This document shows positions 852 to 56,716 of a DNA stretch of 64,000 bases, piece by piece. The stretch spans positions 620,001 to 684,000 of the forward strand of contig BCHU01000012.1 in NCBI GenBank assembly GCA_001599715.1. Reading direction: 5' to 3'. The translations under genes and the position numbers were made by a program. The notes under the pieces are model-generated. The model ran no database searches. It was not told where the DNA came from and saw nothing but the letters and a program-made list of their open reading frames with translations. This DNA is from Phaeotremella fagi (Eukaryota > Basidiomycota > Tremellomycetes > Tremellales > Phaeotremellaceae). The stretch's first letter is position 1. The number at the start of each line of letters is the position of its first letter.

Positions 852-3663
852 TCATTTCCAAGTGTTCTCCGAACCATCGTGAGAGTTGACATGATGACTA
901 GTTGCCGCGCTGGCTGACATGATTTGATCTTCAAATTGAGTTGATACACCGTACATCTCAATTGGGACGTATTCCGGGTTTGCAGTAACGACGGGTTGTG
1001 GATATGGAGAATACAATCGTAATTTTTGACTATCGAGCATAGAATATTCGACCCCATTCATCTCCCCAGCTGTCCATTGACTGTTGTACAGATCGGTATT
1101 GACTGGAGGCAGCATAGAAGCTGATGACGGTCTTGCAGTCTGAAACGGTCGACTCGAGCTTGAGCTTTGTAAAGCGTGTCGATGTGGAACGATAACTTCA
1201 TTTTGATGGTATGTAGTACCCAGAGCCCAATCTGGTGGTAGGGTTGTTTGACGGGTTGATCCATGAACCTGAACCAGGGGTACTGAACTTGGTCCTAAAG
1301 ACATTAAACGAAAATTCGATTTCCGCATTGACGTTGTAGAGTCGGATGAAATGATCATTGTACCACGCTCAATGTCTGATCTACGACTATGGGTGACTTA
1401 GTACGAATAAACTTAGAACGATTTCAGTATACGAACGAGACCCACTAATCATCCATTCCAAAAGCAAATTGTTCTTGTCCTGAACCATCATGTACATCGC
1501 CCGAAGGCCAGGTGGTTGATATCGACGGATTTATCGCGTTGTCTTCCCCAATTCTGAGATTGTCTGGTACAGTTTCGATACCATCCAGTCTACTTGGATG
1601 AGAACTCGACACTGATCTTCTCGCAGTATCAATCAACCGATTCGAATGACTTGGCTGTCTAACAAGATTCGACGACACGTTTGAGTGAGAAGAACCTGGA
1701 GCCTCAGTTCTTGGTAGTTCTTCCTTGTGGTGTCGAGCATGTTGTAACAGATTATCTTGACGACTGAAACTCCTAGAACAAATTGGACATTCAAAAGGTT
1801 TCTCTTGTGTATGCGTCCGAAGATGTCGTTTGAGATGTTCCAAACGCTTGAAAGATCTCCTACAGAAATCGTGGATACAAACGAAAACTTTCGTCTCCTT
1901 TTCCCGTTCACCTGAAGGGTTATTGAGTTCAGATATGGGTTGGGGGTTGTTTGGGTCGAGTCGAGCGATAGATGAGGACCTTATTGCTATGATATTTACA
2001 ATCAGATTCATCTCATAGCGTTAGAAAGAACACACCGGAGTAGTCCGTAGATTCACTCATCCCTCGTCTTTTCTTCAACTCAGATCCATGCTCGCCCATC
2101 AAAAATTTGGGGGACATCGCTCTCGCTGGTATTGTTTCCGAATCGCCAGAAATATCATCGTGTTCGCGGTTGGTGTGAGGATTGAATCGTCGCCTTCGTT
2201 TATAACCTGGACTTCCTTCCAGCAAAATAGGTCTGAGAAGTAATCACGGGTCAGGTATCACATCATGCTTAAGTCAGGTCTGACATACGAGTTCTCATGA
2301 TAAGGAGGATACTTCTGTTGACCCTTTCTTTGAGTAGTACTTTGCCAGTCCTTGGATGATGATGCTTGCTCAGAGAGATCTACTGCACTAACAGCACTTT
2401 GGGAACGATAGGGACCTGTATTATCCTAAAGCAAATCAGTATTCTGATACAAAGTGCAATGCTCACCAAAATGGTTGCTGCCATGCCAGGATTAAGACCA
2501 GCAAATTGTTCAAATAACCCGCGTCTAGGATCGTATCTAAGAAGTTTGTCAATTGGCCGGCGAAAGACGAAGGGAGATACTAACTGAAAGCTCTGAGCTG
2601 GTTCACCCGTCACAGACGACGTGCTCTCCTGGCCAGCTTTCTCGCGCTTCAAGTCTCGTTCCAAGGCGTCAAGGAATAAGCGATCGTGAGGAACTGAAAA
2701 CCTTTATATAATATCATTAGGACCTGATCCACGAATATAAAACTCACCAGTAGAAAACCTGATACCAAACAGACGGAATGAGTTAAAACTGTATTTTCCT
2801 CCAATTAATCGCACGCGGAAACATACCTTTTGCTGAAGAGGTGTCAATGGTCAATCTTGAACAGACGTTCGGACAGTTTCTCACCTTTTTCTGAGTTCTA
2901 ATGCAGCCGTTACGAAAGAGGTAATCCAAAAGCGGAGATCTGTTGTTTGTTAGCGAAACAAGATTCCAGTAAACATGCACCTACTTTGGCTCTTCCAAGC
3001 ATGCATCAGTACCAGGCTTCAGGTTTCGGAGATCTGAAAAGACTCCTTCTTCCCATTTTTTGGTAGACGTCACTGGCCGACCAAAAGCCTCAAAACGAAA
3101 TGAGAGCGCTCGGACTGCAAGGTCAGAGTCATCTCACGTTGGAGACCAATGCCATGATGACCTATGAAACTCACCGATATCTGTTCCAGTGATGTAATAC
3201 AAGCCGTTCCATAACACACAGGAGACAAATTCTCCGTCAGGTAGTCGGTATCTTGAGATATCAGGCCCAAGCTGCAGTCGGTCAGCGATATAAAAAGTAA
3301 TCACAAATACTCACAGGTAATTGATCAAATCGTAGGCCAGGTTGAGTCCATTTACTTGGAGCAGTGGCTAAAAACTTTGACGTAGTTTAGTAGTGCTGGA
3401 TCTGAAGAGAGTTAGCTTACGAATTGAAGGCTGCCTTGAATATCAATCAAATGCTGTTCATTGGCGTTTGGAGGTCGAGGGGTGGCTGTACTTGGAAGGG
3501 GCAAGCTACAAAGGTCTAATTGATCGTAATAGCGGGGTCTGAGAATATCAACAATCGTGTCATGATTAGAGTTTAGGGTTACATACCTTTCCATTTGCTT
3601 CGCAGGGGCAGACGATCCCTCTCTCCAATCATCAGACCAAAGATAAGAAGTTTCGGTAGACAT
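852..3663 (-). CDS. STE12: STE12 transcription factor, paralog 1
   Basis: Predicted mating/filamentation transcription factor at the end of the pheromone MAPK pathway, nuclear. The N terminus [16 protein letters not shown] leads into a complete Ste12 DNA-binding domain: [90 protein letters not shown]. Two C2H2 zinc fingers follow (CIHDFC...HLKRHLRTH and CPICSRSF...LLQHARHH), as in Cryptococcus Ste12 and other fungal Ste12 proteins with zinc fingers. The fingers are encoded at about 1720-1890. All exons can be joined in frame, including 6-nt and 11-nt microexons. The last intron (about 1386-1444, donor GTGGGT, branch-like TACTAAG) extends the protein past an apparent stop near 1445 to TGA at 852-854. 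A second complete STE12 lies at 14211-17309, so this is one of two copies. No disabling change was seen. Confidence 0.88.
2748..2832 (-). other. Two consecutive microexons in STE12 paralog 1
   Basis: The Ste12 domain motif QKVFYW is split over two tiny exons. CAAAAG (2827-2832, 6 nt, codons Q-K) has a GTATGT donor and a TTCAG acceptor. The next exon is 11 nt (2748-2758, GTTTTCTACTG) with a GTGAGT donor and a CAG acceptor. Joining them gives TQKK-QK-VFYW-FSVPHDR, the invariant family sequence. Without them the domain would lose core residues. Confidence 0.85.
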
Positions 3664-8968: not shown

Positions 8969-9078
8969 AATTTCGCCGCAATCGGCCGGTACTTCTTCTC
9001 TCTTTTGTTCTACTTTTCGATGGCTTCTTTAATTACTTATGCATCTCTTTTGTTTTCTGAGGCACTTGACGGAGTTTT

Positions 9079-9415
9079 ATTGTTCCAATTCGGAGTAAAT
9101 ATTGTAGGCTTATTGTTCGCCACAGAAGCGTTTCATGAACAATGAGATTACATCGAGGGGTAGGACGTTTTCGTGAGAAACGGGTGAGTGAAATATATCC
9201 ACCGGAAGACTTGTCTCTCGAGAACAATGAGAAAATTGAGAAATAACTGAGAACAAAAGAAAATAATGGATGCATCGGGTGAAAATTTATTCGGTGACCA
9301 AGAAATTCTTATTGTTCTCTTTAAAAAAGCTGAATGTGGCATTAGCCGCTGAAACGGTGGCGGTCACATTTTCTATTGTTCTTCCGGCATCTACTTTTCA
9401 TGATCTTTATTGTTC
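9079..9415 (+). promoter_or_regulatory. Cluster of ATTGTTC/GAACAAT elements upstream of the pheromone gene
   Basis: Seven exact copies of the 7-mer lie within 337 bp: ATTGTTC at 9079, 9112, 9311, 9375 and 9409; GAACAAT at 9137 and 9222. Near matches are GAACAAA at 9251 and TTTTGTTC at about 9003. Four of the five forward copies extend to TTATTGTTC. The core ACAAT is the class of site bound by HMG-box proteins. A TATA-like sequence (CATATAAATA, 9441-9450) lies between the cluster and the start codon. Binding by a Mat2-like factor is an inference. Confidence 0.7.
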
Positions 9416-9549
9416 TTCCCGTCGATCTCTGGAGGTCTGACATATAAATACCTCTGTTTCTTTGTCGATATTTCTTTTCCTCAACCAAATCAATCAAACC
9501 TTTCAAACCTTTTAAATCTTTTTAAATCAACTCACTCTAAACCAATACA

Positions 9550-9732
9550 ATGGACGCTTTCACTGCTGCTTTCACCACCTCAACCTCTGCTCCTCAAGAC
9601 TTCGAGGACGGACAATACCGTTCAGGACCAACTGCTCAATGTGTCATCTCTTACACTGCTTCTGAAGTCCTCCGTGACAACGAAGATGGTCAATACCGTT
9701 CCGGTCCTACCGCTCAATGTGTTATTGCTTAA
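9550..9732 (+). CDS. MF: Lipopeptide mating pheromone precursor with two pheromone units
   Basis: A 60-residue single-exon precursor of a farnesylated mating pheromone. The leader MDAFTAAFTTSTSAP resembles that of Cryptococcus MF precursors, and the C terminus is the CaaX box CVIA. Two 16-residue units are present: residues 19-34 (EDGQYRSGPTAQCVIS) and 45-60 (the same but ending CVIA), separated by YTASEVLRDN. Fifteen of 16 residues match, yet nine of those 15 codons differ at synonymous positions. The first CVIS is internal, so it could act as a CaaX box only after proteolytic release. Copy 2 follows Asn44, a residue used for N-terminal cleavage in other fungal lipopeptide pheromones. The promoter has seven ATTGTTC-type elements. 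The product should be secreted and sensed by a Ste3 of the opposite mating type. Confidence 0.92.
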   Translation: MDAFTAAFTTSTSAPQDFEDGQYRSGPTAQCVISYTASEVLRDNEDGQYRSGPTAQCVIA

Positions 9733-9738
9733 ATGTTG

Positions 9739-9791
9739 GTGAGAATTGTTCGTTTTTACCAATCGATCATCTGCTAATCGATTGTTTGTAG
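9739..9791 (+). other. Probable 3'UTR intron of the pheromone gene
   Basis: A GTGAGA donor six bases after the pheromone stop, a CTAAT branch-like sequence (ctgctaat) and a TTTGTAG acceptor define a 53-nt intron of normal size for this genome. It carries another ATTGTTC (9745-9751). An intron after the stop codon could affect transcript stability. Confidence 0.5.
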
Positions 9792-9955
9792 CACGCTGAG
9801 TGTTTCGAAGGGGGTAGGGGTGTTTAAGGTAGCTTTGCTGCTATATATTTAGTTACATAGTTGGGATGAATGCATTATTCATGTCCTTCATGATACACAG
9901 CACTCGTATGGATTCATTTCAAACTAGAAAAAAAAACCTAGAAACGCACACCGTA

Positions 9956-12529
9956 TTAAGTTTTCCGTGTAGGTCTCGCATTCTTTGCACGTCGCTGAGT
10001 TAAAGGTTGTCAGTCACGGTTGACTTCATTGATCAATCACGCTTACCTGATCAGCCTGGATGCGCTGCTTTCGTACATCTTGAGCTGACCGTAATTCACC
10101 AGATTGTTTACCTTGTCGTTTATGACCTGAAAGTCCTTTGGGATCGTTGGAATCATTCTGTTTGGAACCATGTCTGAAGCGTCGAGTTGAAATGGGGCGC
10201 TGACCGGCCAGTTCCACCTCTCCTGATTGTGGTAAACGAATTTTCTTAGACTGTCGCCAACTTTCAAATCGTCCGCTGTCGTAAGTAGCTGGCAGTAAAG
10301 CCCCACTTTCACCACGGATCATCTTCTTATTATCAGCACCGATTCCTTCTCCTTGAACAAATTTTCTTTTCTTTCTGTCCCAACTGAGTTGGCTTGCGCG
10401 TTGAGCACGTTGGGAAGCACCTTCATCTTGCGTTAGATCGAGAGTTGCTGAGCGAACTTGCTCTGCAAAAGACGCCCCGTCGCGAAGTGAATAACTAAAA
10501 GTCGATGTCAGACGTAACTCAATCTTCCGAATCAATGATGTGACAGATGCTACTTACCCTTTCTCGGTTTCAGCTCCCTCTTGATGATGGGACATGAAAA
10601 ATCCAGTCTCTTGGAAAGACTTTTGAGGGCGTATCGAAGGCTGAGCCACATTAACGACACGTAAATTATAAGAAATGTAGTAACTAGGAACTCACAGCAG
10701 GCAATCTTCTATCCGTGGGTTGTTCTACAGCATTATCTGCTGTTGGTTGAGTGGTACGCTTTGCAATTGTTTTTCGTCGTTCCTTCATCAATACTGCACC
10801 TGGAGTTTGACCCCTGCTTCCAACTTCAAATACAGTCTCAGACGGGTTGAAAGACATGACAGCAGCAAGTAGTTGATCTCGAGCTGCAAACTGAGTAGAA
10901 TGACCAAGTTGAGAATAAGATGAGAATGCCGGATGTACAAGTAAATTAGCGATACTGGAACCTGTTCCTTTGTTTAATTCTTTAGCGCGCTTATAACCAT
11001 CGGATGACGCTTTTCCACGAGATCGTTCAAACATCGATTGACCTTTCTTCATGACATCTCGCAAAGAGCGTAGATGAGGATTACGTTCATGTAAGATGGT
11101 AGATATGTGCTCAACCTCTGAGTCGATAGCCTCACGTGGAATGGTACCAAATTGAGATTCTGCACTTTCCATCAAGGGTTTGTTGATAAACCTTTCGAGA
11201 TCGGAGAGAAATGGTAAATCATCGTGAGTAACAAACGTCCAAGCAGAACCTTTCCTTCCAGCTCGAGCAGTTCGACCAACACGATGAATGAAGACTCGAG
11301 CGCCAGTTGGGAAGTCAAAGTTGATGACATTCTCCATTACAGGAATGTCCAGTCCTCTAGCAGCAACGTCGGTGACGACCAAGACTTCGGTAGTTCCATC
11401 ACGGAAGCTCTGCATCTGTCTCTGTCGAGCAACCTGATCCAAGGATCCATAAATATGAGAAACAGAAAACTCTGCAGTCTCCAACAGCGAAAAGATGTAC
11501 TCGACATGATGTTTGGTGGACACAAAAATGATTGCCTGAGGACGTCCGGATTGTCCCGTGACCTGGGAAGTAGGAGTTGGCATCCTGAGAACGTCTTTCA
11601 ATAGTGTCAACAACGCAGCGTCTTTCTCGCTCGGTTTGACAAAAAAGAAAGCCATGTCTAAATCGGAGCTGATTTTCTGTTCTGCATCCAGTCTAACCAG
11701 GACTGGATTTACTAAACCGGCTTTCGTAAATTCGGCGAGAGATGAGGGTAGCGTCGCAGAGAAGAGTAAGTTTTGACGGTTTGGTGGAAGACGATGAAGT
11801 ATTTCTCGAAGTTGCGCATCGAATCCCATTTCAAAGAGTCTACGGGGTAAGATATTCTTCAACTTCTCTTCTCACCTGTCAGCCTCGTCATAGATAACCA
11901 TTTCTACCGTTTTCAAATCCATTTTCATCTCTACCATCAGATGCAGGAACCTTCCTGGTGTTGCGATTATACTATTTTGTTAGCGAAATGGACTCTGAAC
12001 GACTTACATGTCAGGATTGTCAGCCATCGATTGAAATTGTTCATCCAGACCTTCTCCTCCCATGACAATCGCCCATCTCAGCCCTTCCTCATCTTTCGTA
12101 TTGTTTCTGAATGCACCTCTAGCCAGATCTTTTCCTACACGGAGGATTTGCATTGCCAATTCTCTATTTGGACAAAGGATAAGTGCTCGAGGCCCAAATG
12201 ATTTAGAATGCTTTCCTCCTAGTCGTTGCAACAAGGGAATAATATAGGAAAGAGTTTTTCCCGAACCGGTTCGAGCCATACCAAGTAAATCGCGAGGAGG
12301 ATTGGAGGTGGAGCTTGGAATACTTGAACGTTGAATTGGAGTTGGATTTTTGAATCCTCGCAGTTGCAGAGCCTTGGCCAGAGCGGGAACAACACCTTCT
12401 GGTCAACAACGAAAAAATCGAAAAGTACTCACCTAGATTTTGCCATGCTCCACCTTGTACAGTTGATTTAGATGGACCTGGTAAGGATTGAGAGCTACTA
12501 TCAGCCCAATCTGGTTTTGAGCTAGACAT
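9956..12529 (-). CDS. DBP10: DEAD-box RNA helicase Dbp10 (DDX54)
   Basis: Nucleolar ATP-dependent RNA helicase for 60S ribosomal subunit assembly. In order: Q-motif region ([18 protein letters not shown]), motif [23 protein letters not shown], the DEAD motif (VIYDEADR), SAT ([10 protein letters not shown]), [24 protein letters not shown] and [10 protein letters not shown]. The C terminus has the Dbp10-specific block ([18 protein letters not shown]) and a very basic tail ending [12 protein letters not shown] after a last intron; stop TAA is at 9956-9958. The start ATG is at 12527-12529. It is divergent from REI1, another 60S factor, over only 212 bp. Confidence 0.93.
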
Positions 12530-12741: not shown

Positions 12742-14124
12742 ATGTTCACTTGTATCTCATGTAGAGTCGCATTCGACACTGCTGTAGAGCAACGGGCTCA
12801 CTTCTCAACTGATTGGCATCGTTACAACATGAAAAGACGGGTTGCAAATTTGCCTCCCGTCGCTGCGTCAATATTCAACGAGAAAGTAATTGAAAGGAGG
12901 GAGCAGAATGCTGTCAGAACCGATCCTAGAGGTATGATTTGTAACACTTGCAGGTATGTAGCACCATTATGATATCTCTAACCTACTAGCAAAACATTTT
13001 CCACCGAAAACGCATATCGATCTCACGTACAATCTAGGAAACATCGCGATAGAGAAGCTCTACAAGCCAGGACCTCGATGGTAGCCTCAACGTCAGACGT
13101 TATAATCACCCCCAAGCAGGTAGAGACGGAGAGGATAGAAGACGAAAACACTGAATCAGACGAAGAGGAGTCAGATGAAGATATGGCAGATATCGATGGA
13201 AGAATTGCCGCCTCTCGTCGAAAAATTGATCCTACCGATTGTCTATTTTGTACCAATAAATTCCGATCTATCGATGACAACGTCGCTCACATGTCTCGCT
13301 ATCATAGTTTCTTCATTCCAGATCAAGATATTCTCGTCGACTTACCAGGTCTCCTGTCTTATCTCGGTGAAAAGGTTGCGATTGGAAATATCTGCCTGTT
13401 CTGTCCTAATGGCGGTAAAGAATTCGGAACTTTAGAAGCGGTACGAAAACATATGATTGATAAGTCTCATTGTAAACTTGCGTATGATTCCAACGAAGAT
13501 CGAGCGGAACTGGCAGACTTCTACGATTTCCATTTGGTAGAAGGTGGTAATGATGAGGATTGGGAAGATGTCGAGGGAGGTTTGGTCGATGATGAGGATG
13601 TATTGTTTCAAACGGTAAGCATCCGCTGGGAAAGAGCTGATCGCCGTAGGCGGATACCGCTTCGCTCTCTGCAGATGGACTATCATTGGTATTGCCATCT
13701 GGTCGAGTTTTAGGTCATCGTTCTCTTAAAATCTACTACTCGCAACGATTGCGTCACGATACCTCCGATAATAGCTCGAGAGATCTCATAGCTGCTAAAG
13801 TTGCAGCTGTTCGAGAACGACTTGCCGATCCAACTCTCGCTCTGGTACCTGTCTCTGGTGGAAGTGGAGCTTTTGGCAAAGGTTTACAGGTTGTCAAAGC
13901 TCGAAATGCAGGTGAAGCGAGGTGGGCTAGAAGTCAAGGAGGTAGTTTCAGAGATCAAAAGGTACGAGAAGCACACAAAACAAGAGTTGGATTTGTTCAT
14001 AACAGTCAAAAACGTGAGTTCTATTTTTGGTCGAATTATTGCTCATCCATATAGATTTCCGTGATCGTTTGCGTAAGTTGGACCAATCCATGTACGAGCT
14101 CGCTGACCTTTTTCAGTGCAATAA
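12742..14124 (+). CDS. REI1: Cytoplasmic pre-60S zinc-finger factor Rei1
   Basis: Cytoplasmic 60S maturation factor (Rei1/ZNF622 family) that helps release Arx1/Alb1 from pre-60S particles. C2H2 fingers: MFTCISCRVAFDTAVEQRAH at the N terminus, CNTCSKTFSTENAYRSH...RKH across the first intron, CLFCTNKFRSIDDNVAHMSR, and CLFCPNGGKEFGTLEAVRKH. An acidic stretch (EDENTESDEEESDED) lies between the second and third fingers. The C terminus TRVGFVHNSQKHFRDRLLQ, assembled over two short introns, is the family signature and ends at TAA 14122-14124. ATG 12742 starts exactly at the first finger. It is tail-to-tail with STE12 paralog 2 (86-bp gap). Confidence 0.93.
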
Positions 14125-14210: not shown

Positions 14211-17200
14211 TCAATGCCCTTGTTCCCATTCACCAAAGCGCACTTCTAGATCTGACTCCATCGACGTTGAGATTTCCTTGCTTTGATCGATCGTAGAAGA
14301 AACATTACTGTCATTGAACGGCACATGGTCGGTCTGTGTGAGTACATTCGTTCCAGCAAAAGGATACCGTGATGGGTCAAGCATATTTCCCATGTTGGTG
14401 AGGTCTTGATTCGCGGCCATAGAACTATCAGAGCGATTTACAGCCAAAGAAGAGAAAGGGGTCGCTCGATGTTGAAACGATGAGGGATCGAGAGAAGCTG
14501 CTCTAGTCGCTGGAAAGCCTTCATCAGGTACTTCGTTATTTGCCGCATAAGGATGAAAGCGAAAATCCGAAAGTGGTAAGCCTCGGCCGATGTCATGACC
14601 ACCCATACGACTGCTGCCTTGGACGATGTTCGGTGTCATCGAGCGATGTCGTTTGGTGAGAGAGCTGCTTCCAACTGGGTGGTTCATAATACTTGACCAT
14701 GTTCCAGGACTGGTAGTACGGAATTGATTCGAAAAATTCTGGACCTCAGGGTGATAGCGACCAAATTGAATGGGGGAAGGATAAACTTGTTGGTTATGAT
14801 GTGATGGATCCATTTGTGGGTAGGGATGAGGAGCTGAGAGGTTTCACTTGAAGAACAGTTTAGTACAAGAGCGACTTACCCGCTTGGTCACGATGAATGA
14901 CAGGTCTAACACCATACTGATTGAACGAATACTGATCTTCACTGTTAGAACCAAGGTCCCCGTAACCCCAAAATGCCTGATCGTCCTTAGCAGCCATAGC
15001 ATCCACCTGAGCTTCGAGAACTTTCGCTATATCATCATCCTCCGTACTTTCTGAAGCTTCTGTCTTGAACCTTTCTCCTCTGTCCGCTTTCTCGTGAGTT
15101 TTGATGTGCTGTGTCAAGTTGTCACTACGACTAAACCGCTTGGCACAACGAGTGCACTCGTATGGCCGCTCTTGTGTATGAGTTCGAACGTGTCGCTTTA
15201 AATGTTCGAGCCTCTTGAAGACCCGTCCACAAGATAGAAGAGGACAGCTAAAACCTTTGTTGCCTGGTGTTGTCGTACTTTGATTGGAAACGATTGGACC
15301 AACGATTGAGTGAGATCCAGATATAGGCTTTACGGGGTACGGGGAGGACGTTCGTTCCGTAGGAACAGGTAAAGAAGCTGGCTGCCAAGATTGAGACTGA
15401 TAAATTTTCTGAGGATGAATGATAGGATTAATCATCGGTTTGTCCATGTAATTAGGTGACGAACTTTGACCGTCATGTCGAAGAATCTGAGTGGAAGGGA
15501 AAGGGGGAACAGGTGATACACCTCGATAATCGTAGAATGTGGGATTGTGAGTTATGACAGAGAGACCGTATGGTGTTGCTTGGGGATTGAATAAGATCGA
15601 TTGATCATTTGGTGGCACAGCGTCGCTGTCCGAAGCGCTACCTTCATCACCAGTATCATAAGTTGACAAAGCGGTACTTCCGCGCTGCTGACGGTATTTT
15701 TGATCTCGTGAAGACTTCATGCGCCTCTTCTTGTAGGAGGGACTACCCTCAAACAACGAACCGGAAAATAAAACCGAACTGGCGGTAGATGGGCGAGCCA
15801 TACGCTCACCGTCACCATTTTCAGAAGTTGGTGACTGTTCAGTGATCCCCGTTGATGGATCAGTCGATGGATCGAGGTTGTTGCTATGAGGAAAGGGAGA
15901 GACCTGCTCTCCCATCTGCACCAACACTGATCTGTCGATAATACCCTGTTGCTTTCCAGGCATTGGAGGCACAGACGACTCATTCGACGTGGCATTCTTA
16001 ATAATCCCATTAACTCGTGGTACATTTTGGGATTAATGACTTACAGATGAATCTAATCCAGGCTGTTTCCCAGCAAACTGTTCAAATAAACTTCTTTTTG
16101 GATCATATCTAAGTGAAAGTATTAGATACTTCGCTGATCAGGAAAGTTTAGACCTGCCTGAAGCTTCTGGCTGGTTCCCCAACTACTACAGTGGTTGCTT
16201 CTAATCCCACTTTCTCTCTCTTCAAATCTCTTTCCAGTGCGTCAAGAAACAACCGATCATGTGGAACGGAGAACCTTGCAAACTTATCAGCTTTTGGTAG
16301 CCTAGGGATATTAATGTAACTCACCAGTAAAAGACCTGAACAAGGTGTGAAAAATAAGACATATACGTCGTTGCTATACTCACCTTTTGCTATACAGTGA
16401 CAAGGCATCAGCAACTTCCAGCATACCATGAATCGTAACCCACCTTTTTTTGGGTCCTAATACACCCGTTGCGGAAAAGCAGGTCCAAGAATTGAGATCT
16501 GACTGTTTAGCTTATTTTGTACCAAAGACACCTACTTTGGCTCTTCCAAACAAGCATCTGAGCCAGGTTTCAAATTTCGTAAATCAGAAAACACCCCTTC
16601 TTCAAATCTGGAGTGGTGATTAGCTACCGATTCATCGCTGATACCTGATTACTAACTTCTTGATGTTTCGAACTGGTCTAGAGAAAGCTTCAAACCTGAA
16701 GACCAAAGCTCGGACTGAATAAATGGTAAGCGAAAAGCAAACTCTTCCCCTCACCTATGTCCGTTCCAGTTATGTGGTAGAGTCCATTCCAGAAAACGCA
16801 CGCGACGTGTTCACCGTTTGGAAGGAGAAAGCGGTTAAGATTAGGATGGGGAGATGAGAGCGTAGCAGGGGTCATTGATGAATTCTGTGTCAAGTCAGAC
16901 TCGCGCCTATATAAAAACCTTACATTACTGCTCCCGTTCTCCTCTGAATCCATCCATCGAGTGGGTGCAGTTGCAAGAAACTAGCAAGTGGTATCAGTTC
17001 ACAGCCCATAGGAGGCTTAGCTGACCTACGAATTGCAACCGACTGAGATGTTTAACTAGTTGACTTTCTCTCTCTGTCAAAGAGCGAGGTAGTACATCGG
17101 TCGGTTGTGGTAGAGGAGTGGTGGGGGTACCTCCTCCGAATACAGGGGGGGTAGGACTTTTCCAATCAGTGTCATGACACACTACTTTCTTACGATAAAC

Positions 17201-17309: not shown

Positions 17310-18033
17310 TGAAAATTTACCGAATGAATTTGTATCTGTCTTGCTGTTAGACTGAAAATTGCCAAACTTACTATCAATTTTGTTGTGTTGAAAGATATAA
17401 TGTGAGTTCCTTTCTTCTAAGTTGAAAGGATAAATGTCTTTGTTTCATGCCGTGACAATTTGATGAAACGAAAAGCCTGCGTGGCGACTGTGTTTTCACG
17501 TTTCAAGAGCTCGGATGCCTCAGAGGAACAGTAAAGGAACAGCAAAGGCAGAGGAACAGAGGGACGATAACAGATGATCGATCAGAGGAACAATGCGTAC
17601 ATGGGGGATCATTTACTGTCATTAGAAGAGAAAGTCCGCCACAAAGTACCTCTCTGTTACTTCATCTATTCAAGTGCCACTTTTTGTTTTCTGTTTTATC
17701 ATACGGTCAAAATATGATACAATATTTTCACACTGCTTATGATATCATGTTATAATAATACGAAACATAAACCACAACAAGTCACTCACTCAATCTACTT
17801 GTACTGAGCCATTATAGATAAGACCACGAACAATAAACTTGCAGCTAAACTTGAATCCATCAGGCTTATTGTTCGCCACGTGGATTGGTAAAAAATGGCT
17901 TATTGTTCTTTTTGTCTTTATTGTTCTCGATATGACTTTGGATGCACGAAGTCAATGAATGACAGACGTATATAAAGCGGCTGGTCCACAATGATTTCAT
18001 TCTTCTCATCTTTAAATTTCCACTACTTCTAAC
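17310..18033. promoter_or_regulatory. Shared STE12 paralog 2 / STE3 promoter with GAACAAT elements
   Basis: This 724-bp divergent promoter has exact GAACAAT at 17588 and 17828 and ATTGTTC at 17868, 17902 and 17920. Three GGAACAG copies lie between about 17523 and 17560. An 18-bp block AGGCTTATTGTTCGCCAC at 17862-17879 is identical to 9106-9123 in the pheromone promoter. A TATATAAAG box (17969-17977) is about 60 bp before the STE3 ATG. A CACGTG overlaps the end of the shared block (17877-17882). Confidence 0.7.
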
Positions 18034-19330
18034 ATGCACGACGTTGGATTTACTTTCTTCTCTGGTCTCAGTTTTCTATTGGTATTATTACCTCTTCCCC
18101 TTCACTGGCGCGCTCAAAACGCTAGCACTATCTTAACCATATTATGGCTCTCAGTCGGTAGTTTAGTCTACTTCGTAAACTCAATTGTCTGGTGGGATTC
18201 TGCAGAAAATTACGCTCCGATCTGGTGCGACATTTGTAAGTTTCCCAAGCCGATGACCACTGACGAATAGCTGTCAAAATTATTATTGGCATTCAAGCTG
18301 CCATCGCAGGAACTAGTCTTTGCATCAATCGTCGTTTGGCGGTCATAGCGTCATCTCGGACTGTGACCATCGGTCAAAAACAAAAACGAAATGCTTTAAT
18401 CTTTGATCTATTCTTTGGTCTGGGGCTTCCTGCTTTGATTATGGCGGCATCGTATGTCGTTCAACCCCATCGGTTCAACATCATTGAAGGTGTCGGATGC
18501 CAATTTCCCGAGTGGCCGAGCTTAGCTTCAATCTTCCTTGTCCACATTTGGCCCGTAGTTCTGAGTGTAGTATCAGCTGTTTACGGTAGTGAGTAATCCT
18601 TGAATTGTCGGACGACCTTTGCTGACGTGAAGAATCCAGTCATTGCAGTCAAGTTTTTCCTCGGTCAACGAATGCAATTTCAATCCCTGCTCAAATCGTC
18701 GTCAAGTGGTCTCGATGCAAGTCAGTATCTCCGCCTCATGGGTGTTGCCAGTTCAGCTTTGCTCTTTGGATTGCCTTTGAGTCTGTACTGGCTTGTCACA
18801 ACGGTAAACAGTCTCGAACCATGGACAGGATGGTCAACAATACACTTTGATTGGAGTGGAGTCGCTCAATATACGTTCGATGAAGACGAATACGCATTCG
18901 GTACCGAGCTCACAGTCGTCTTACTTCTTCCTCGGTGGCTTGTTCCTCTACTGTCTTTGATATTCTTCCTCAGTTTCGGTGTTGCGGAGGATGCGATGGC
19001 GGAATATTCCAGGTGGATACAGAAGATCGCCGGATGGCTGCATATCACACGATTGAGCGGTGGGCAAACGTGAGTATATCAACATTTCGTCTCTAAGCCA
19101 AAGATTGACAATCTGCAACTTTATTCAGAGAACCAATTTATCATCCTCGACTAGGTACAACAGTTTCAAAGCCCCAGGGTCAAGTCTGGAAAGACGATGG
19201 ATCTGCTAAAGATGAAGAACCTGAATCCCTTCTCCCTACCCTCGCTGTGAATTCCTCCAACCCTGAACCCATCGTCTCAGCTGGAAAATCTGTAAATGTA
19301 GTCGTTCACGTCGAACGTAACATAGTTTAG
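18034..19330 (+). CDS. STE3: Pheromone receptor, Ste3 family (7TM GPCR)
   Basis: Seven-transmembrane receptor for a farnesylated pheromone, coupled to a G protein upstream of the mating MAPK cascade. There are four exons (18034-18235, 18271-18588, 18640-19069, 19129-19330), giving 383 residues. The N terminus is very short, as usual in the family. Hydrophobic segments include FTFFSGLSFLLVLLPLPLHW (TM1), TILTILWLSVGSLVYFVNSI (TM2), IIIGIQAAIAGTSLCINRRL (TM3, with the family CxNRRL), FDLFFGLGLPALIMAASYVV (TM4, then QPHRFNIIEGVGC), a fifth across intron 2, LMGVASSALLFGLPLSLYWL (TM6) and a seventh near residues 285-310. The cytoplasmic tail is about 80 residues. The promoter shares elements with the pheromone gene. 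Mating type (a or alpha) cannot be told without alleles. Confidence 0.95.
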
Positions 19331-19765: not shown

Positions 19766-22305
19766 TCAGCTCAAGTCTTTATCATCATCGGGATCGAAAT
19801 TAGTCCATGGGAAGGGATTCAATCTCGTTACTTGTTTAACGATATTGGGGATTATCAAGTTCCCTCCCAACTGCAGATGATTTCATGGAGATGAAATTGT
19901 TTTTGAAAACAAAGAGATAACCAATTGAATAGAATCCAAAGCCAAACTCACTTTCAACAATTCCGTGGAAGTAGCCCTGAAAGAAACGTCGACACAAAGA
20001 CAAACGCTCAAGAAATGTTTCAAATCTTGACTGAGTTTCTCTGGAGATTTGAGCGTAGGTGTACCATTCGTAGCGATGAGATATAAAGCTTTAAGAGGTT
20101 CTTCATCCAGATACGGTGGTTCGTTTTCGATCATTTCGATTGCCATGATTCCTAGAGACCAGATATCGACTTTGGCACCGTATTCTTTTTGTTTGACTAC
20201 TTCTGGTGCCATCCAGTATGGTGTTCCTACCATTGTTGCTCTTTTTGATTTTTGATCGGTTAGTTTGGCGCAGAATCCGAAATCGGCTGTGGGTTGTTAG
20301 ACCTTTTCGTGTTGGTGGTGAATTGGCTTACTGATTTTAACTTCTCCTGAAGAGTTCATTAATAAATTATCTGATTTGATATCACGATGAATGATAGACC
20401 TCGAATGAAGATGTTGTAAACCTCTACAAGTCTAATCGAAGCTAATCAGTACGATCCTCATTACTCATGAACATGGACCCACCTCCAAACAAATAGCAGC
20501 AATCTGTTCCTCGGCCAATTTATTATTTTCAATGACATCAGTCAAAGCACCACCTTCCATATACTCCATCACCACCCAAAGTTCGTTACCTCTCAACAAG
20601 AAAGCTTCCAAGAAATTCACGACGTTTGGATGTTGCGATTCCTTCATGACTATGATCTCATTCACTATCAATTCTTTACGTGGTTGTTGAGCTAGATCCA
20701 TTTGTTTGATGGCAACTTTTTTACCGGATGACAGAGTTTTGGCTACGAAGACCATACCGGAAGCACTAATCCAGTTGTCAGTGACTGATAACATTACGAT
20801 ATGGAACGGAACACCTACCCTTGACCGACTTTTTTGATTTTTGAATAAAGCTGAGTTGGATCGTCTTGACTGACGACTGATCTCAATTTCTCCATTATCT
20901 GAGCCTCGTTCATTGAACTGATACGTTTTTCTGGTCGAACAGCAGGTGGAGCAGCTACAGGTGGAGGAGCACGAGGAGGCTCAACAGGTCTGGAAGGTTG
21001 TTGAGGAGCGTCGGCTGCTCTGGAAGGTCCAGCTGGACGTGGGGGTGGTGGAGCTTTTCTTTCGGCAACCAGTTGACGAGGTTTGTCGATTGGTGGCTAG
21101 AGATTTGTCAGTCATGACTATGGGGTTGTTACCTACCTCAGCTCTTGGTGGTTCAGGTTGACGTGAAGGTCGAGGAGCAGTAATAGCAGCCGTAGCTGCT
21201 TGACTCCTTTCTCTCTCTCGTTCACGTTCACGTTCCCTCTCCCTCTGTTCTCTCTGTTCCCTCTCACGTAGTTGTTGTTGCTGTTGTTGCTGAGCTTGCT
21301 GCGTTTGCTGCTGCTGCTGTTGTTGTTGCTGTTGCTGCTGCTGTTGACCGGCGAAACCTATACCTTCAAATCTAGTAGCACTAGCGCCAGTATTGGTACG
21401 AGGTAAAGAAGGCATTGGACTCTGTTGATAATCATTCCCATTACCCAATTGCTGTTGAGTGTAAAATTGTAAAACGTCAAGAACGGCTTCTGGATGTCTA
21501 GCAGCTTCTTCTTTAGTGATAGCAGAAGAAGTGAGTAATTTCGACCATTGAGCTGGGAGACCCTAAAGAGGTAAATCTAGATCAACAACCAATTCCAAAC
21601 ACCAGACAAGACAGGACTTACGGTGAAACCACCTGAGATAGGATCGAAACCGACATGAACCTGATGAACGAAATTGGTAGGTTGCGATACCCCCATCAAC
21701 GGAGATCTAGAATAAATATCTTCCATCCAACCGTAAACCTCTTCATCAGACCTGAAAGCGAAATATAAAAGTTTATCTTTGATCTCAAGTTCGATGCAGA
21801 ACGGTTTCAAATCGACTCTTTGAACGTCGATGACGTCGTTGAGATTGTAATTCGAAGTAGGTGATGATGATTGCTAGAGTGTCATGGTGTTAATCATTAA
21901 AAACTCGTTTCATAACGTGGTGAAATGGAATGATGACCATTGGCTTACTTCATTCTTGAAAATCTGTAATTCATTACCACCAAGTACCAACCATCTCTTA
22001 CTCCACAGAAAGCTCCGTAACCCTTCCTCCTTAACACTAGCCGGACCAGTCCTAACCACCGAATTCCTATTCTCCCGTGTAGTCAACGAAACTGATGAGG
22101 GTGTGGTAGAAGGGAAAGAAGGTGCGTAAGTGGTAGATGAATATGAACTTGGGTTGGTGTTGGTTAGAGTTGATCTTGAACCTGAAGAGGTTGAGGGTGT
22201 TGGTGCTGTTCTTTGGGGTGCGAATGATGAGGTTTGTTGGGATCGTGGTGGGGCTGGGGCTGGTCTTGAAGGGGTTAGGGAGTTTATATTGTTGTTGTAT
22301 GACAT
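19766..22305 (-). CDS. STE20: PAK/Ste20 protein kinase with PH and CRIB domains
   Basis: Cdc42/Rac-activated kinase, upstream of the mating MAPK module and of polarity. The order is MSYNNN start (another ATG lies three codons upstream), a Pro/Ser-rich N terminus, a PH domain ([20 protein letters not shown] ... [20 protein letters not shown]), a CRIB/PBD ([20 protein letters not shown] ... [10 protein letters not shown]), a long poly-Gln tract, a charged Arg/Glu stretch, then the kinase. Kinase motifs are [33 protein letters not shown] and [15 protein letters not shown] domain before CRIB is typical of the Cryptococcus MAT Ste20. After RATSTELLK the usual H(P/E)F motif is missing; the only AG acceptor leads to [11 protein letters not shown] and TGA at 19766. 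The last exon is therefore less certain. Confidence 0.9.
21271..21346 (-). repeat. Poly-glutamine (CAG/CAA) tract in STE20
   Basis: About 76 bp of mixed CAA/CAG codons, read on the minus strand, encode two Gln runs broken by a few Thr/Ala residues, between the CRIB region and the kinase domain. Length is likely polymorphic. An adjacent Arg/Glu repeat (RERERE type) is at about 21205-21265. Confidence 0.85.
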
Positions 22306-22611
22306 TTTAGTCACGAGAGTGGATGTCGGTGTGGTGTTTAAGGTTTCAGTGGTATTGTTTATCCAGTGTTATTGGTGAAGTTGGTGGTGATGTTATCGTT
22401 AAAGTCGTGAATGATGATAAGTATAGGATGGGAATAGATGGTAAGTAATTAAGTGAGAAGAATGAACAAAGAACTGTAAGGAATCGATAGATGAATGGGA
22501 AATGGGGTCACTAGAAGGTTACAGTGCAAGTACAACTTCGTGTCTGTGCGCGTGGCGCGATAAGTATTGTGGTGGTGTGGTGTACGTGACTCTCTCTAAG
22601 ACTGCATGAAA

Positions 22612-22736: not shown

Positions 22737-25700
22737 CTATCTACTCCTACCAAATTTATGACCACCAATCAAACTTCTATTCTTCCTTCCAGATTTACTC
22801 TGACTATTATCAAGTTTAACAGCTGAGATCGTTGAGATCTGTTGAGCCAAGAATTCTTGTGTGCCTTGTCTAAAATAGTCATCAGCTAAATCCAATGAAT
22901 AAACTCCAAACCCACCTCATTCTCAAAATCCTCATAATCATCTCAGTGTTATTCCCCGCGTTGGTCAAATTCATTTGTTTCTTGGCAGATTTCCTAGCTC
23001 TGATCGTACCAAGATTACGTTGGTTCAAAATTGATTTCGAAGGTTTCAAAGCTTTATATTGTAAAGTACTTTGGAAACCTCTTATACATTCCTATCAAAA
23101 AGATCGTCAACATCAATCAGTCAATCAATGAAATATATTTACTTACCTCCATCAACTCATCCGTTGACCAATCGTGATAAATCCTAATCGACAGAATCTC
23201 ATTGAACTTCGTATTCTGCAAAACATTGATCGGGACACCGGAATCGTCTCCACCGACATAAAAGAAATCTTTCAAGAACTTCAACCATTTAAGTGTAATA
23301 TCCAATTCACCGTCTGTCAAAGATCTCATTGGACTTGGTTTATCACTCAACGGTGGGACGATCAGCGATTCGATAGTCGTTAAAATCTGTTTCCACAGTT
23401 TCGCCATTACCATTTGCATGGATTCTTTGGATAACGTCGTTGATAAAGTATGAATGTTTGTATCGAGATAATCGAATAAGGGATGGATGACAGATTCGAT
23501 TTCCGTATCTGTCGGTCCTTGATTGATTAATAGTTTCCTTTCAGCCGCTGGGAGTGGGATCGAATATTCTGATGGATTAGCTCCAGCTCCTGCATTAGCT
23601 AATGCAGCTTTGATCCTGTTGACAGCATCGTTGTAATCAAGATTCCCTAAGCCGTTAACACCACTACCAGCTGGTTTAAGAACAGATTTAATGGAAGCCC
23701 GAGACAAAGTCGACCGTAAAACCGGTGTCATCTAGGATAACATCAGTAAACATTCAAATAAAAAAACCCTTTAACCCACTTTATCAACGAATATCCTAAC
23801 CATATCACTCTCAGTCCTTTTCAACCATCTGAACGCCCTCCCAAAATGAAATTGAATATCATCCCTCTCACCCTCCATACTCACCCTCAACAAAAGATGA
23901 CCACGCGTATCAAGGGGTAACAACACGTCTTTCGAGATCAAATCTAAATATTGTGAAGGGTCTAATCGTAAATAAGCCCGTCCGAGTAAATCATGGTTAC
24001 CACCTAAAGTTCGATGTTTGATCGTTGCCATGAACCATGCTGATCCTTTCAGTGCAATGTCAAAAGTCTCGTCCCATCTTGGATCCGTTTCGTCGTATAT
24101 CGTCCGTGTTTTCGCGTATCTGTTACCATGTTCGTCGGAAAGTATCACAAAGGCGTCAGGTAGTTTCGTGTTGTTGTTCGATGAATGTGAAGTCGCATCT
24201 AATGATATCCCTTCTGCTAGGATTATTTTGATGGTGAACAGGTATTTTAGTTGATCAGGATGTGGGATAGGTTCGTTCTCGTTAAGTTCGTAAGCCGCCA
24301 AATCGTCAACCCTCATATCTTGATATAAACGATCAAGCTGTTGTCGAGCAGCTTCAATGTTATTCAATTTGACACATGACTAGGGGGGTTTTATCAGTTG
24401 TTGGTGATCACAACACAGCTATTCCACTCACAGCAGCAGTGAAATTGAAGAAAGGTTGTATCTTCTTTTCACCCTGTAAATTCGCAAAAGTAGATTTAGC
24501 TTTTTCAACCCAAGCCTTCTGTTTAGCCGAACTCTGCACACTCTCATGAGATCTCATGTCAAGCATAAAAAGTGATTCCATTTTATTACAGTAATCGTCA
24601 ATCGATAAACTAAAAACCTGTAGACATGTCAGCAGTCAGCCAATTTTGATACTCGTGTTCATTGACATACTTTAGCTAATCTAGTTGCGAATGCTGCTAA
24701 TTGTTTTTCGTCGCCCCATCCTAATTCCATGATGAAGTTGGAGGCGCTTCTGAAAGAATCGAATAAATCTGTGACGGATGATGAAGGTCCTCCTTGTTCG
24801 GTTATTGGGACGAACTGGAGGGGGTTAGTATAGCCTAATGTGGTCTAATATAGCCCATGCTTACAGTATCTTCCGCCAATGCCTGTAATATATGATCAGC
24901 TTAAATAAATTCCACCAGAAGAATACATACATTATCAGCCCATTCTTTAGTCTTGGCAGCAGTCTGATCTAACCATCGATGAACAACGCCCTCGAAAATA
25001 CTTTCCAATGGATAACTCATAGGTTCCCTAAGACACAGAGTCAGTCAAAGTCTCGCATTCCCCGTTTGATACTCACTCGGCATAAGCGTTACCCAAGGTC
25101 ACCAACTTCTGTGCCCTTCTATACAACGTGAACGCCTCTTCAATCTCCCCTTCGGGTCCAAGTGCCAAACTAGGAGCTGTCATGGCATCTTCCAAATCCC
25201 TCATCCAAAGGTTGATCTGCTGTTGAACGACCAAAGGTAGTAAATCAATTTTCCTATCCAGGTAAGCAAATGAAATTAATTTCAAGAACGGTGTCACATG
25301 AACCCAACTCACTCTGTGATCCCATTCCCAAATTTCTTGTCCAACTTTTTAGCACCTTTCTCGATCCACCCTGCCATACCCATGGCGAAACCTCTATTCT
25401 TCCCTCCTTCATGTTCCATTCTCTCTCCAGCTTCAGTGATATAACTCTCGAAAGCTTCCACTCTAATTCTTTCAATGACAATTCCCGTCAAAGTGATTAT
25501 TCCAGGATGTCTTTGGTTTATGGGGACACCTATTGAATGTAGATTTTCCACGGAATCGTAAAACTCTTCCGAGATGTATCCATTTTCCTTCAAGGTGGTA
25601 TCGATCTGTGAAAGAAGATGATATGATAATTGAAGATATGTCCTTTCTAATCCTCGTTGCTAGAGTATCGTTAGTACAAATATACCTTAACCACCTACAT

Positions 25701-43390: not shown

Positions 43391-45962
43391 TTACAACTCC
43401 CCCTCACTCCCCTCTTCCCAATCAACATCCTCCAAAGCCGCTTCCCCCTCTTCATAAAGTTTATCCAAACCCGTGAACCGTTCCAAGAAATCCGATTCGT
43501 TGAAAGCTTTCAACAACAGATCCCATCCTTGAGATTTATATCCATCGACGATCTGGTCGAAGATTCAAATCAGTTCCACCTCCCTGTCTCAATAGAGATA
43601 GATGCAACTTACAGTTTTACTACATCCTGTACATTTGTCATAAGCCGCTCCTTCTATTAACATCGTTCTCCATTGTCCCAGGATACCTCTTAATTGATGA
43701 GGGACAAGTCCTAATGGTGATCCCGGCTCTGGTTCTTTGGGGGTGACAGTTTGTTTACTACCCGTACCAGGTGCGAGTTCAGCTGGGGCGTTGATTCTAA
43801 TGAAAGTTTCCAATCAGTCATATCCAGGTTGACCAAAACCCAATCCTGTACATACCCTTTGGGATGTTGGATCAAAGAAACAAGGAGTTCAACAGCCGTC
43901 GCCGATGCTATAGGTGCAATACCAGGTCTAGTGACTGTACACATTTGATCCAAAGTTCTATCCGTAAGCGACTAATCAAAATCAGTCGTCATCCCATCCT
44001 AATAACCAAAAAACTTACATCAGCTGGTGCAACGATATCGTTACAATAGTAACAACCCAGTCGACCGGTGTTATCATCACCAGGCGATGCTCCATGTCTC
44101 ATGACTAGATAACTATCGAATCCCAACGCTGCGTTGATAACGATTTTATTTTTAGCGGAACAGATGACGGTAGGTAACCATCTTGATTCTCTTGAATCCA
44201 TTAATAGAAAGACGACATCATGCTCGTCAATAAGTTGTTCGAGTTTTTGAACTTCCTTCTGAGTTTGTTCGATTGATGTTGGGGGTATAGGATGACCTGG
44301 CATTGGGATCATGAATGAATGAGCTGAAGCGTTCTGCCGGTGGTTTTAGGTTTATGTCATATCTGAAAGTACACAGATGAATCAACTCACGACACCAGGA
44401 AAGATCTTCTTCAATTTATCAGCAGCACATTGAGCTTTTGGTTTCCCACCATCCAAACAATCTTCGAAATCGAATAACGGTTGTCTGACAGGATTCGAAT
44501 AAGAGACTTTTGCAGAATCGACAAACGTTATCGTCCTAATACCCCAACCCTATGATCAAGCGTCAACAAAATTGTCACAGGTAAGAAACATCTACTCACC
44601 ATTAAAGCTCTGGCCACATAACAACCCAAAGTTCCAGCACCCAACAACAAACATTTTGTCGAAGAAATCTTCTCAAGTTCTAGAGCGGGCATGATCCTCC
44701 ATCTCATAAGTTTAAGATTCAAATCGACAGCTTGATCAGCGAGTCTAAAAGATTGAATTAGTCACTCAGTATGGATGATCAAATTGGATATCAAACTCAC
44801 TTTGTTGGATCCATCATAGGTCCCAAATCAGCGATTCGACTAGCAAGTTTTCCATTCTTATTACGTTCCCACCCAACAGCTTGAGGTCGATCCTCTAAGC
44901 CTACACTTTCAGAAACAGAATCAGGTATACTGATATGACCGATTCTACTCGCTGAACCTGCTCGGAGACATGCAACATTGATGGATCTGATATCATGTTG
45001 TTTATGGAGATAATAGAGGATGTTTCGGAGTGGCCAACCTGGATTTTGGGGTAATGATGATGGATCGTGGAAGACTATTGTTCTCTGTGGGGGTTTTGAT
45101 CAGGTCAGAACTGAGTAATTTGGGGGAAACGATTTGACTTACTTCTGATTCTGGAGTTTCATGGAAAAAAGCAGTTGCCTCTGAAAGATTGGTAATACTC
45201 CTCTGACCTTTAACGCCCTTCAACAAAAACCCTTCAGTCTTGTTTGATAGACCGTTCTCAAGTGAACGAATCTCTTCAACATCCTATACAATCTCGTTCA
45301 GTACCGTCACGAATATCTGTGTAAGTAAATAGATCGACTCACAACATCATCCAAAACATTCCATCCAAGCTCATCAATCTCCCAACCAGGTTTAGCGACC
45401 AAAGCAGGGAAAGCGAACCAATAATGATAACTGTATTTCTTCAGATCTGCAAAAGTGACCAATAGAAAAGGGTTGAAGACAGGTGAAGAAGTTTTGAATG
45501 ATTCCAGGATCTATCCCAACATAAGTATTTCTGATTATGATTGGGGGGGTTGGGATTGAACTCACGGTATCAACGACTTGATTGAATAACTCCTTCTTCG
45601 GTTCAGTAGATTTAAATTCTTCTATAGTGTTGAAATTCTTGAAAACCCCTTTAAATGGTATACTATCTCGAGGTGGTCTAAATAACACACACACAACTCA
45701 ACCCATGAATCAGTGTAAATGAAGGCACGAACCTCTCAAAATCATCACCGAAACTACCACCTCCAACTCCAAGACTCCCATCTACCCCAACGTTTTCACC
45801 TGCGTTATCTCTGTCTGAGATTTCTCGACCTTCTTCGAGCCAACCTAGGATTGGTTGTTGGGTATCGTCGAGTTTGAGTTTATCGAGTTTGAGGGTCGTT
45901 ACGGCTGACCAGAAGGAGGGGGTAGGTTGGGATGACAGGGGTTGAAATTGGAGGGGTGGCAT
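43391..45962 (-). CDS. ATG7: Autophagy E1-like enzyme Atg7
   Basis: E1-like activating enzyme for Atg8 and Atg12 in autophagy, cytosolic. The N-terminal domain starts [20 protein letters not shown]. The adenylation domain shows the nucleotide motif [36 protein letters not shown] sequence, [16 protein letters not shown], and [15 protein letters not shown]. The catalytic Cys is in [21 protein letters not shown] zinc-site [10 protein letters not shown] precedes it. The C terminus after the last intron ([20 protein letters not shown]) includes the region that binds Atg3/Atg8 and ends in an acidic tail, stop TAA 43391-43393. About eight short introns. Length and order are normal for the family. 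Confidence 0.93.
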
Positions 45963-55543: not shown

Positions 55544-56716
55544 TTTTGGTTAATGGGGGCGGAAGAGTTGGGAGGAGAGTTGGGAGTTGGTTGTAGATGA
55601 TTGAAGAAGGAATGATATCAAATCGATGTTGTAGGAGAATATTGTTTGTACCAGACAAAAAGTGTGTTGTATCGACTACACAACAGTAAGCTATCAAAGC
55701 TACCCAGTAAAGTCGATGGAAACGGAGGTCGATTGAATTCAATATAATTGATTGATCAACGAATCGTAACTCATCGACATGGGCTTGTGTTGTACGATAT
55801 CAAGCAGAAAGGTAAAGATAAAAACTAAAAGAGAGTGAATGTAAAATCAAAGAGTGTGAATTGCAAGTCAACCGGAATCGGACTATGCTAGAGGAAGTAG
55901 GATGATTTAATGGATTGAAGGATTGAAAATAAACGAAATGATTAGTGAGACATCGAAAATGGTGTAAAATGATTTTTTATGACGTTACATTGATTTTTAC
56001 TTTCTAGACCATTGTTCGATCAACTTTATCGAAATGAGACAAAGATGGCGTTTCCCTTCATGCATTCTTTTGATACGTTTCTTGGATAGAATACTCTGAC
56101 TTTCCACTTGAACTGTGGTTAATTGAAATGCCACTATGGATAAGCCACTTTACGAAATCCTGGGATCGTCCGTGGCGATTTCCCTTAAAAATGAATATTA
56201 CCTATCTTATCTTTCCATTTCCGGTCAGTTTAATGGTCGATTGGATTAGACTTTAGATTTTCGGTTCAAAATATGATAAAATAACACTTATCTAATTCAA
56301 CGAGATCCTACAGCGGTTGCTTATGCTCGAAGACTTACAGGGCATGTGTCAGCCACCATTCAAATGTTCTTTTCATGGTGTAATCGAATCTTTCCAGCTC
56401 CTTCCTATCGAGATTCAACCCAAATGCAGTTTGCCGTATCGGCTATCTCATTCAGTTTAGTTTAGTTACCATTTTTTCTCAAGTTCGGTTTGTAGAGATA
56501 GATTCTTTCAAACGTTCACTCCTTTCAACCTTCTCGATAGCACTGTGGAGAGAAACAACAAAAACCTTAGTCGTTGATCGACACAGGTGTTATTCGCTGT
56601 TTGATACATGCGGTAGTTTAGTCACTCTTTTAACTTTTCCTATACTACATCTCTTTTCAACTGTCAAATCACAAAACCTACAACTCCCTTCACCTCGACT
56701 ATAGACAACGTCGAAG
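55544..56716. promoter_or_regulatory. Large divergent intergenic region of the GT2 pair
   Basis: 1173 bp between the two divergent GT2 starts, the longest gene-free stretch in the window. Mostly AT-rich and without a convincing ORF or RNA gene. No CACGTG was noticed. It probably holds the promoters and 5' UTRs of both genes. Confidence 0.5.

Follow-up and report, generated by a model that had tools for sequence, protein, structure and literature searches.

Introduction

What becomes of the inner half of a pheromone precursor in which two near-identical peptide units are each followed by a CaaX-like box? This question is raised by a short reading frame in the 64-kb stretch of DNA analysed here (C12:620001-684000, hereafter the window), part of a genome of 22.6 Mb in 24 contigs. 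Multi-unit precursors as such are established, as the earlier note on this DNA had stated for red yeasts of the Sporidiobolales (PMC3068285, PMC3236058); Microbotryum, the rusts and a hybrid type in Trichoderma belong to the same kind.

The precursor gene and its layout

The gene and its parts are as follows.

9550 to 9732, plus strand: coding sequence of the MF pheromone precursor, 60 aa, no intron recognised within it
9550 to 9603, plus strand: leader, residues 1-18 (MDAFTAAFTTSTSAPQDF), delimited by the start of the peptide repeat
9604 to 9651, plus strand: unit 1, residues 19-34, EDGQYRSGPTAQC followed by VIS, with the inner CaaX-like box at 9640-9651
9652 to 9681, plus strand: spacer, residues 35-44 (YTASEVLRDN), without a dibasic (Kex2) site
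9682 to 9729, plus strand: unit 2, residues 45-60, EDGQYRSGPTAQC followed by VIA, with the C-terminal CaaX box at 9718-9729

The open reading frame, found with the same coordinates, frame and translation in the earlier note, reads MDAFTAAFTTSTSAPQDF-EDGQYRSGPTAQCVIS-YTASEVLRDN-EDGQYRSGPTAQCVIA, the division by hyphens being our own. It has the shortness and the C-terminal CaaX box (CVIA) of MF/MFA precursors and, with two near-identical units and a CaaX-like box after each, also the organisation of multi-unit precursors of the rhodotorucine type. Seven short reading frames in the window end in a CaaX box, and MF is the only pheromone-like one among them. The Pfam profile 'Pheromone' (PF08015) matches residues 40-59 of the precursor with 17.3 bits (cut-off 22; E 0.01), and the search of the genome with this profile did not report the gene. 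Automatic detection usually misses short pheromone genes (PMC8545103), and the threshold of a profile is no defining biological feature of MF precursors.

Position in a P/R mating-type region

Downstream of the precursor gene, the window holds these genes.

10026 to 11871, minus strand: DBP10, partial, with Helicase_C and DBP10CT domains
12982 to 13713, plus strand: REI1-like zinc-finger gene, partial, with a zf-C2H2_2 domain; named by resemblance
14211 to 16839, minus strand: STE12-like gene, encoding a STE domain and C2H2 fingers, adjoining STE3 and transcribed divergently from it
18034 to 19330, plus strand: STE3, the pheromone receptor of 383 aa, assembled by eye from four exons
20465 to 22368, minus strand: STE20-like kinase, partial, with Pkinase matched on 20465-20980; named by position and resemblance
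23771 to 24379, minus strand: reading frame with a C2 domain, compare C2prot of Kwoniella P/R loci
44812 to 45953, minus strand: ATG7
61263 to 62900, plus strand: NDC80, by domain

Downstream of the MF precursor, STE3 follows at a distance of 8.3 kb, which is the association of pheromone and receptor genes that characterises a P/R locus. MF, STE3, STE20, STE12, DBP10, REI1, ATG7, C2prot and NDC80 are common to the P/R loci of Kwoniella (Coelho et al. 2025, PMC12510652), and all nine are present in the window, REI1, STE20 and C2prot being named by domain and resemblance; positions 21910-22368 of the STE20-like region gave no Pfam match. The best reading is that the MF gene belongs to the P/R mating-type region of a Tremellales yeast with the Kwoniella P/R gene set. 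The nine genes span 53 kb here, against the 24.3-34.4 kb published for the P/R loci of Kwoniella (PMC12510652), and with a span beyond that range some of them may sit outside the non-recombining part.

The receptor shows similar identity, 45-48%, to its counterparts in C. gattii, two Kwoniella and Saitozyma. A tree calculated for it and 16 of the 17 hits places it outside the group of C. gattii and Kwoniella. Such a position would be expected for the other mating-type class as well as for another genus than Kwoniella, and could reflect either. The homeobox profile PF05920 has a single hit in the genome, which lies on another contig, C1, at a distance of 57 kb from its start; this agrees with P/R and HD loci that are not linked.

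Besides the STE12-like gene at 14211-16839 (minus strand), the window contains a second one at 852-3259 (minus strand), both with STE-domain and zinc-finger stretches; between them, two stretches of the STE domain are 72% identical as DNA, and the fingers are 60% identical over 57 residues. Truncated STE12 fragments have been reported in Kwoniella a2 alleles (PMC12510652). Two further genes, at 52849-54934 (minus strand) and 56705-59190 (plus strand), are divergent, lie about 1.8 kb apart and have reading frames that look alike on inspection; the former carries a glycosyltransferase domain.

Promoter elements of MF and STE3

Upstream of both the precursor and the receptor gene, a short motif is clustered.

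9077 to 9415: cluster of TTATTGTTC and ATTGTTC in the MF promoter, putative pheromone-response elements
9442 to 9449, plus strand: TATA-like box ATATAAAT, recognised by eye
17828 to 17926: cluster of TTATTGTTC in the STE3 promoter, at 17828 (minus) and at 17866, 17900 and 17918 (plus)

All eight copies of TTATTGTTC in the window are found there, four upstream of MF (9077, 9110, 9309 and 9407, all plus) and four upstream of STE3. Of the 21 copies of the looser ATTGTTC in the window, seven are upstream of MF, including further cores at 9375 (plus), 9137 (minus) and 9222 (minus), and five upstream of STE3. Across the 22.6-Mb genome, TTATTGTTC is found 333 times, compared with 212 for the reversed control pattern, and 0.01 copies are expected per 650 bp. 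The element AGGCTTATTGTTCGCCAC is common to the two promoters, with 18 identical bases (17862-17879 equal to 9106-9123). We take the ATTGTTC/TTATTGTTC core to resemble an HMG-box site. The HMG factor Mat2 of C. neoformans works downstream of the pheromone MAPK pathway (PMC2869318), and the TTATTGTTC sites may be targets of a factor of the Mat2 type; together with the shared 18-bp element, they are a good candidate for a pheromone-response element.

As far as the sequence tells, its position in the P/R region and its promoter elements make the MF gene appear placed and equipped like a functional pheromone gene. The identity as a pheromone precursor, proposed in the earlier note, is supported by the surrounding P/R genes and the promoter elements held in common with STE3.

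Divergence and constraint of the two units

At the DNA level, the two units form part of a 56-nt direct repeat (9598-9653 and 9676-9731) with a spacing of 78 bp and 79% identity. As peptides, the units at residues 19-34 and 45-60, which had been described as near-identical, match at 15 of 16 positions and end in CVIS and CVIA; the codon counts given previously are exact as well, with nine of the 15 shared codons differing and every change synonymous. The sixteenth codon, for the X residue of the CaaX box, encodes Ser (TCT) in the inner and Ala (GCT) in the outer unit. According to the method of Nei and Gojobori, the comparison of unit 1 with unit 2 yields nine changes on 11.7 synonymous sites, which amounts to saturation, and one change on 36.3 nonsynonymous sites (dN 0.028). 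When ten random substitutions were placed in one unit, at most one residue was changed in 0 to 10 of 200,000 trials per run, over eight runs with kappa 1, 2, 4 and 8 starting from either unit.

Saturated synonymous sites next to almost untouched nonsynonymous ones argue that the peptide of both units was held constant as their DNA drifted apart. That purifying selection acts on each unit, as the earlier note had suggested, is supported by these counts and by the substitution trials, the two units being compared with each other only; decay of the inner unit, which had also been considered, is contradicted by the same pattern. The five residues directly preceding each unit agree at one of five positions. 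The codon usage of the units, set against nine reading frames of the window, gave no clear pattern between units. The two-unit repeat is likely old; slippage can remove identical repeats, and selection disfavouring them could be a further cause of rapid synonymous change.

The inner box shows this constraint more weakly than the units as a whole seem to do. Its Val and Ile are retained despite synonymous changes in both codons, and its X remains a small residue. Under neutrality, the four first and second positions of these two codons would be found unchanged with a P that ranges from 0.004, if synonymous sites are taken as saturated, to 0.095, if dS is set to its lower 95% bound. A Val and Ile kept through synonymous change are expected if the inner CaaX box is used; comprising two codons and being weakly significant, this is a modest argument, and the best that the sequence offers, for use of the inner box.

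Proposed maturation and alternatives

We consider it probable, though well short of certain, that both units are released as one and the same 13-residue lipopeptide from a rhodotorucine-like two-unit precursor. The precursor would then be a polyprotein consisting of the leader, unit 1 with CVIS, a 10-residue spacer and unit 2, which closes the chain with CVIA. By the known pathway, unit 2 would most likely be farnesylated at Cys57, trimmed of VIA and carboxyl-methylated, and a cut before Glu45 (DN/E) would yield the 13-residue EDGQYRSGPTAQC lipopeptide. In a-factor, the N-terminal cut falls after Asn, and the Asn before Glu45 recalls it. The mature start at Glu follows the analogy with tremerogen a-13 that was drawn for Cryptococcus, where the pheromones of C. 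heveanensis were proposed to begin at Glu (PMC2873909). Unit 1 would most likely be cut after Ser34, by which CVIS becomes a free CaaX end, and prenylation and a cut before Glu19 would follow, so that the identical pheromone is obtained once more; the protease that frees the inner CaaX end and the inner prenylation are steps that we infer. Up to two pheromone molecules per precursor would result, a gain in dosage comparable to that of the MF duplications of Cryptococcus, but intragenic.

The residue before the Glu of the unit is Phe18 in unit 1 versus Asn44 in unit 2, and the N-terminal cut may thus differ in efficiency between the two. No protease site that would free CVIS is recognisable in the precursor, which contains no dibasic site and no Lys; with the dibasic site missing, Kex2 is no obvious candidate for the cut. 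In a domain search, the genome was found to encode M48_N (STE24-like) and ICMT domains, but since M48_N also has matches in one and ICMT in five of 14 control genomes, this is weak evidence for a CaaX pathway. A precedent for the preferred reading is rhodotorucine A, the precursor of which holds tandem units with CaaX-like spacers that are processed to several mature peptides by enzymes not known (PMC3068285).

Among the alternatives, it is rather unlikely, yet to be taken seriously, that only unit 2 is lipidated, while unit 1 is freed as an unprenylated peptide of weak activity at the receptor, or has the function of a leader or chaperone segment. Farnesyltransferase requires a free C-terminal CaaX box, and unit 1 is internal, with no protease site recognisable after Ser34; moreover, the DN/E context that resembles the a-factor cut after Asn belongs to unit 2 alone. 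An unprenylated unit 1 would, however, not need its Val and Ile kept through synonymous changes, with the probabilities under neutrality given above. Doubtful to a similar degree is a composite proposal, according to which either an endoprotease exposes the inner CaaX box before prenylation, or a bivalent lipopeptide is exported, the duplication within the gene would be old and stand in place of the MF duplications of Cryptococcus, and the synonymous divergence would guard it against loss by hindering slippage and recombination between the repeats. Proteolysis would in its first version precede the lipid, the reverse of the order in a-factor.

It is highly improbable that the units stay joined, which would give an extended bivalent lipopeptide (roughly residues 19-57) that has two segments for receptor binding but one farnesyl group, at its end; the missing dibasic site between the units and the constraint on both would suit such a product, but the fungal lipopeptide pheromones described in the works cited here are short, such as the 11-residue alpha pheromone of C. 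deneoformans that was used as a synthetic peptide (PMC6772093).

Two further explanations can be practically dismissed. Repeats can originate by slippage, but a second copy that is neutral, as a recent or tolerated duplication without function whose identity is due to its youth, is rejected by the DNA identity of 79%, the nine synonymous changes with one nonsynonymous change and the at most 10 of 200,000 random trials. The last one concerns splicing, and a candidate intron is indeed present.

9739 to 9791, plus strand: candidate 3'-UTR intron (GTGAGA...CTAAT...TAG, 53 nt), directly past the MF stop, its acceptor recognised by eye

Although Tremellomycete genes are rich in introns and STE3, as joined by eye, requires three of them, a precursor spliced to leave one translated unit is rejected, as both units are constrained as protein and the MF coding sequence, with ten bare GT and five bare AG pairs, contains neither a GT[AG]NG donor nor a CT[AG]AY branch site. 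With consensus sites absent from the coding sequence and the candidate intron past the stop, splicing that removes unit 1, raised as a possibility in the earlier note, is not indicated and unlikely from the sequence. RNA folding of 9740-9800 gave no signal (z 0.57).

Search for further pheromone genes and relatives

No second MF-like gene was found in the genome by these searches, which would miss an MF that has diverged in both leader and peptide. The sole other genome hit (on C7, E 0.12) covers 35 residues of a 182-residue frame, is proline-rich on visual inspection and was judged to be due to chance. The profile PF08015 has matches on C1 and C8 that stay under its cut-off, 3000 of the 3171 bases of the C1 locus having been inspected. 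A protein search with the precursor returned three candidates, none at E <= 10, the comparison with solved structures gave no match, and of nine pattern matches in viral contigs none was confirmed.

A cluster of about three STE3-like receptor genes lies outside the mating-type region at C3:584238-591226. No pheromone gene is recognisable beside them in 20 kb (two 10-kb loci, L018 and L019), and four short CaaX-ending reading frames nearby, all in L018, are not pheromone-like by eye.

Comparison with known precursors

Precursors of rhodotorucine A hold three to five units, and the peptide is presumably unrelated in sequence to the EDGQYRSGPTAQC pheromone. Those of Rhodosporidium toruloides (RHA) and other red yeasts likewise carry tandem peptides per precursor with CaaX-like spacers (PMC3068285, PMC3236058), but belong to the Pucciniomycotina, whereas here two units are combined with a C-terminal CVIA as in Cryptococcus. 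Strains of S. salmonicolor and S. johnsonii were seen to differ in RHA2.A1 by synonymous change only (PMC3068285, PMC3236058). Repeated pheromone peptides per precursor are also described for MFA1 of the cereal rusts (Puccinia) and, as cited there, for Microbotryum; the rust MFA1 contains three similar repeats, the second of which is species-specific, in contrast to the two identical mature units proposed here (PMC10977897). In the ascomycete Trichoderma reesei, HPP1 has three (L/I)GC(S/T)VM motifs, one of them C-terminal as the CaaX box, so that the use of the inner motifs poses the same question; HPP1, however, has two Kex2 sites and a repeat that is a 6-residue motif (PMC3068285).

Within the Tremellales, Mfa1 of C. 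heveanensis shares the C-terminal CVIA and the position in the P/R locus (PMC2873909). The MFA1/2 precursors of C. heveanensis have 39 aa and end in CVIA or CIIA (PMC2873909), and the MF of C. depauperatus has 37 aa (PMC9296135); they are thus 21-23 residues shorter than the 60-aa precursor. For Kwoniella, every species analysed is described as having one MF gene, with a CAAX at the C terminus; the main text of that work contains neither 'tandem' nor 'pheromone precursor', and its sections 8 and 19 no internal units, but its authors may have noticed a two-unit precursor (PMC12510652). Among the matches listed in full-text searches, judged by title and beginning of abstract and with subscription papers outside their reach, no report of a multi-unit precursor in Tremellomycetes was found, which carries little weight. 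As the multi-unit kind itself is established elsewhere, and no relative or second MF was found, what appears new in this group is the layout, that is, a Cryptococcus/Kwoniella-type MF gene that carries two units in the rhodotorucine-like manner.

Meaning

In heterothallic Cryptococcus species, a mating type has several MF genes, four at most, and Kwoniella has one, for a reason described as uncertain (PMC12510652). Additional pheromone repeats in a precursor raise output and mating success in budding yeast, with gains that diminish (PMC5850478). A two-unit precursor in a P/R region of the Kwoniella type suggests that dosage may have been raised inside one gene instead. The question of how an inner CaaX box is matured would thereby enter the Tremellales, in the vicinity of genetically tractable species, and become testable in this group.
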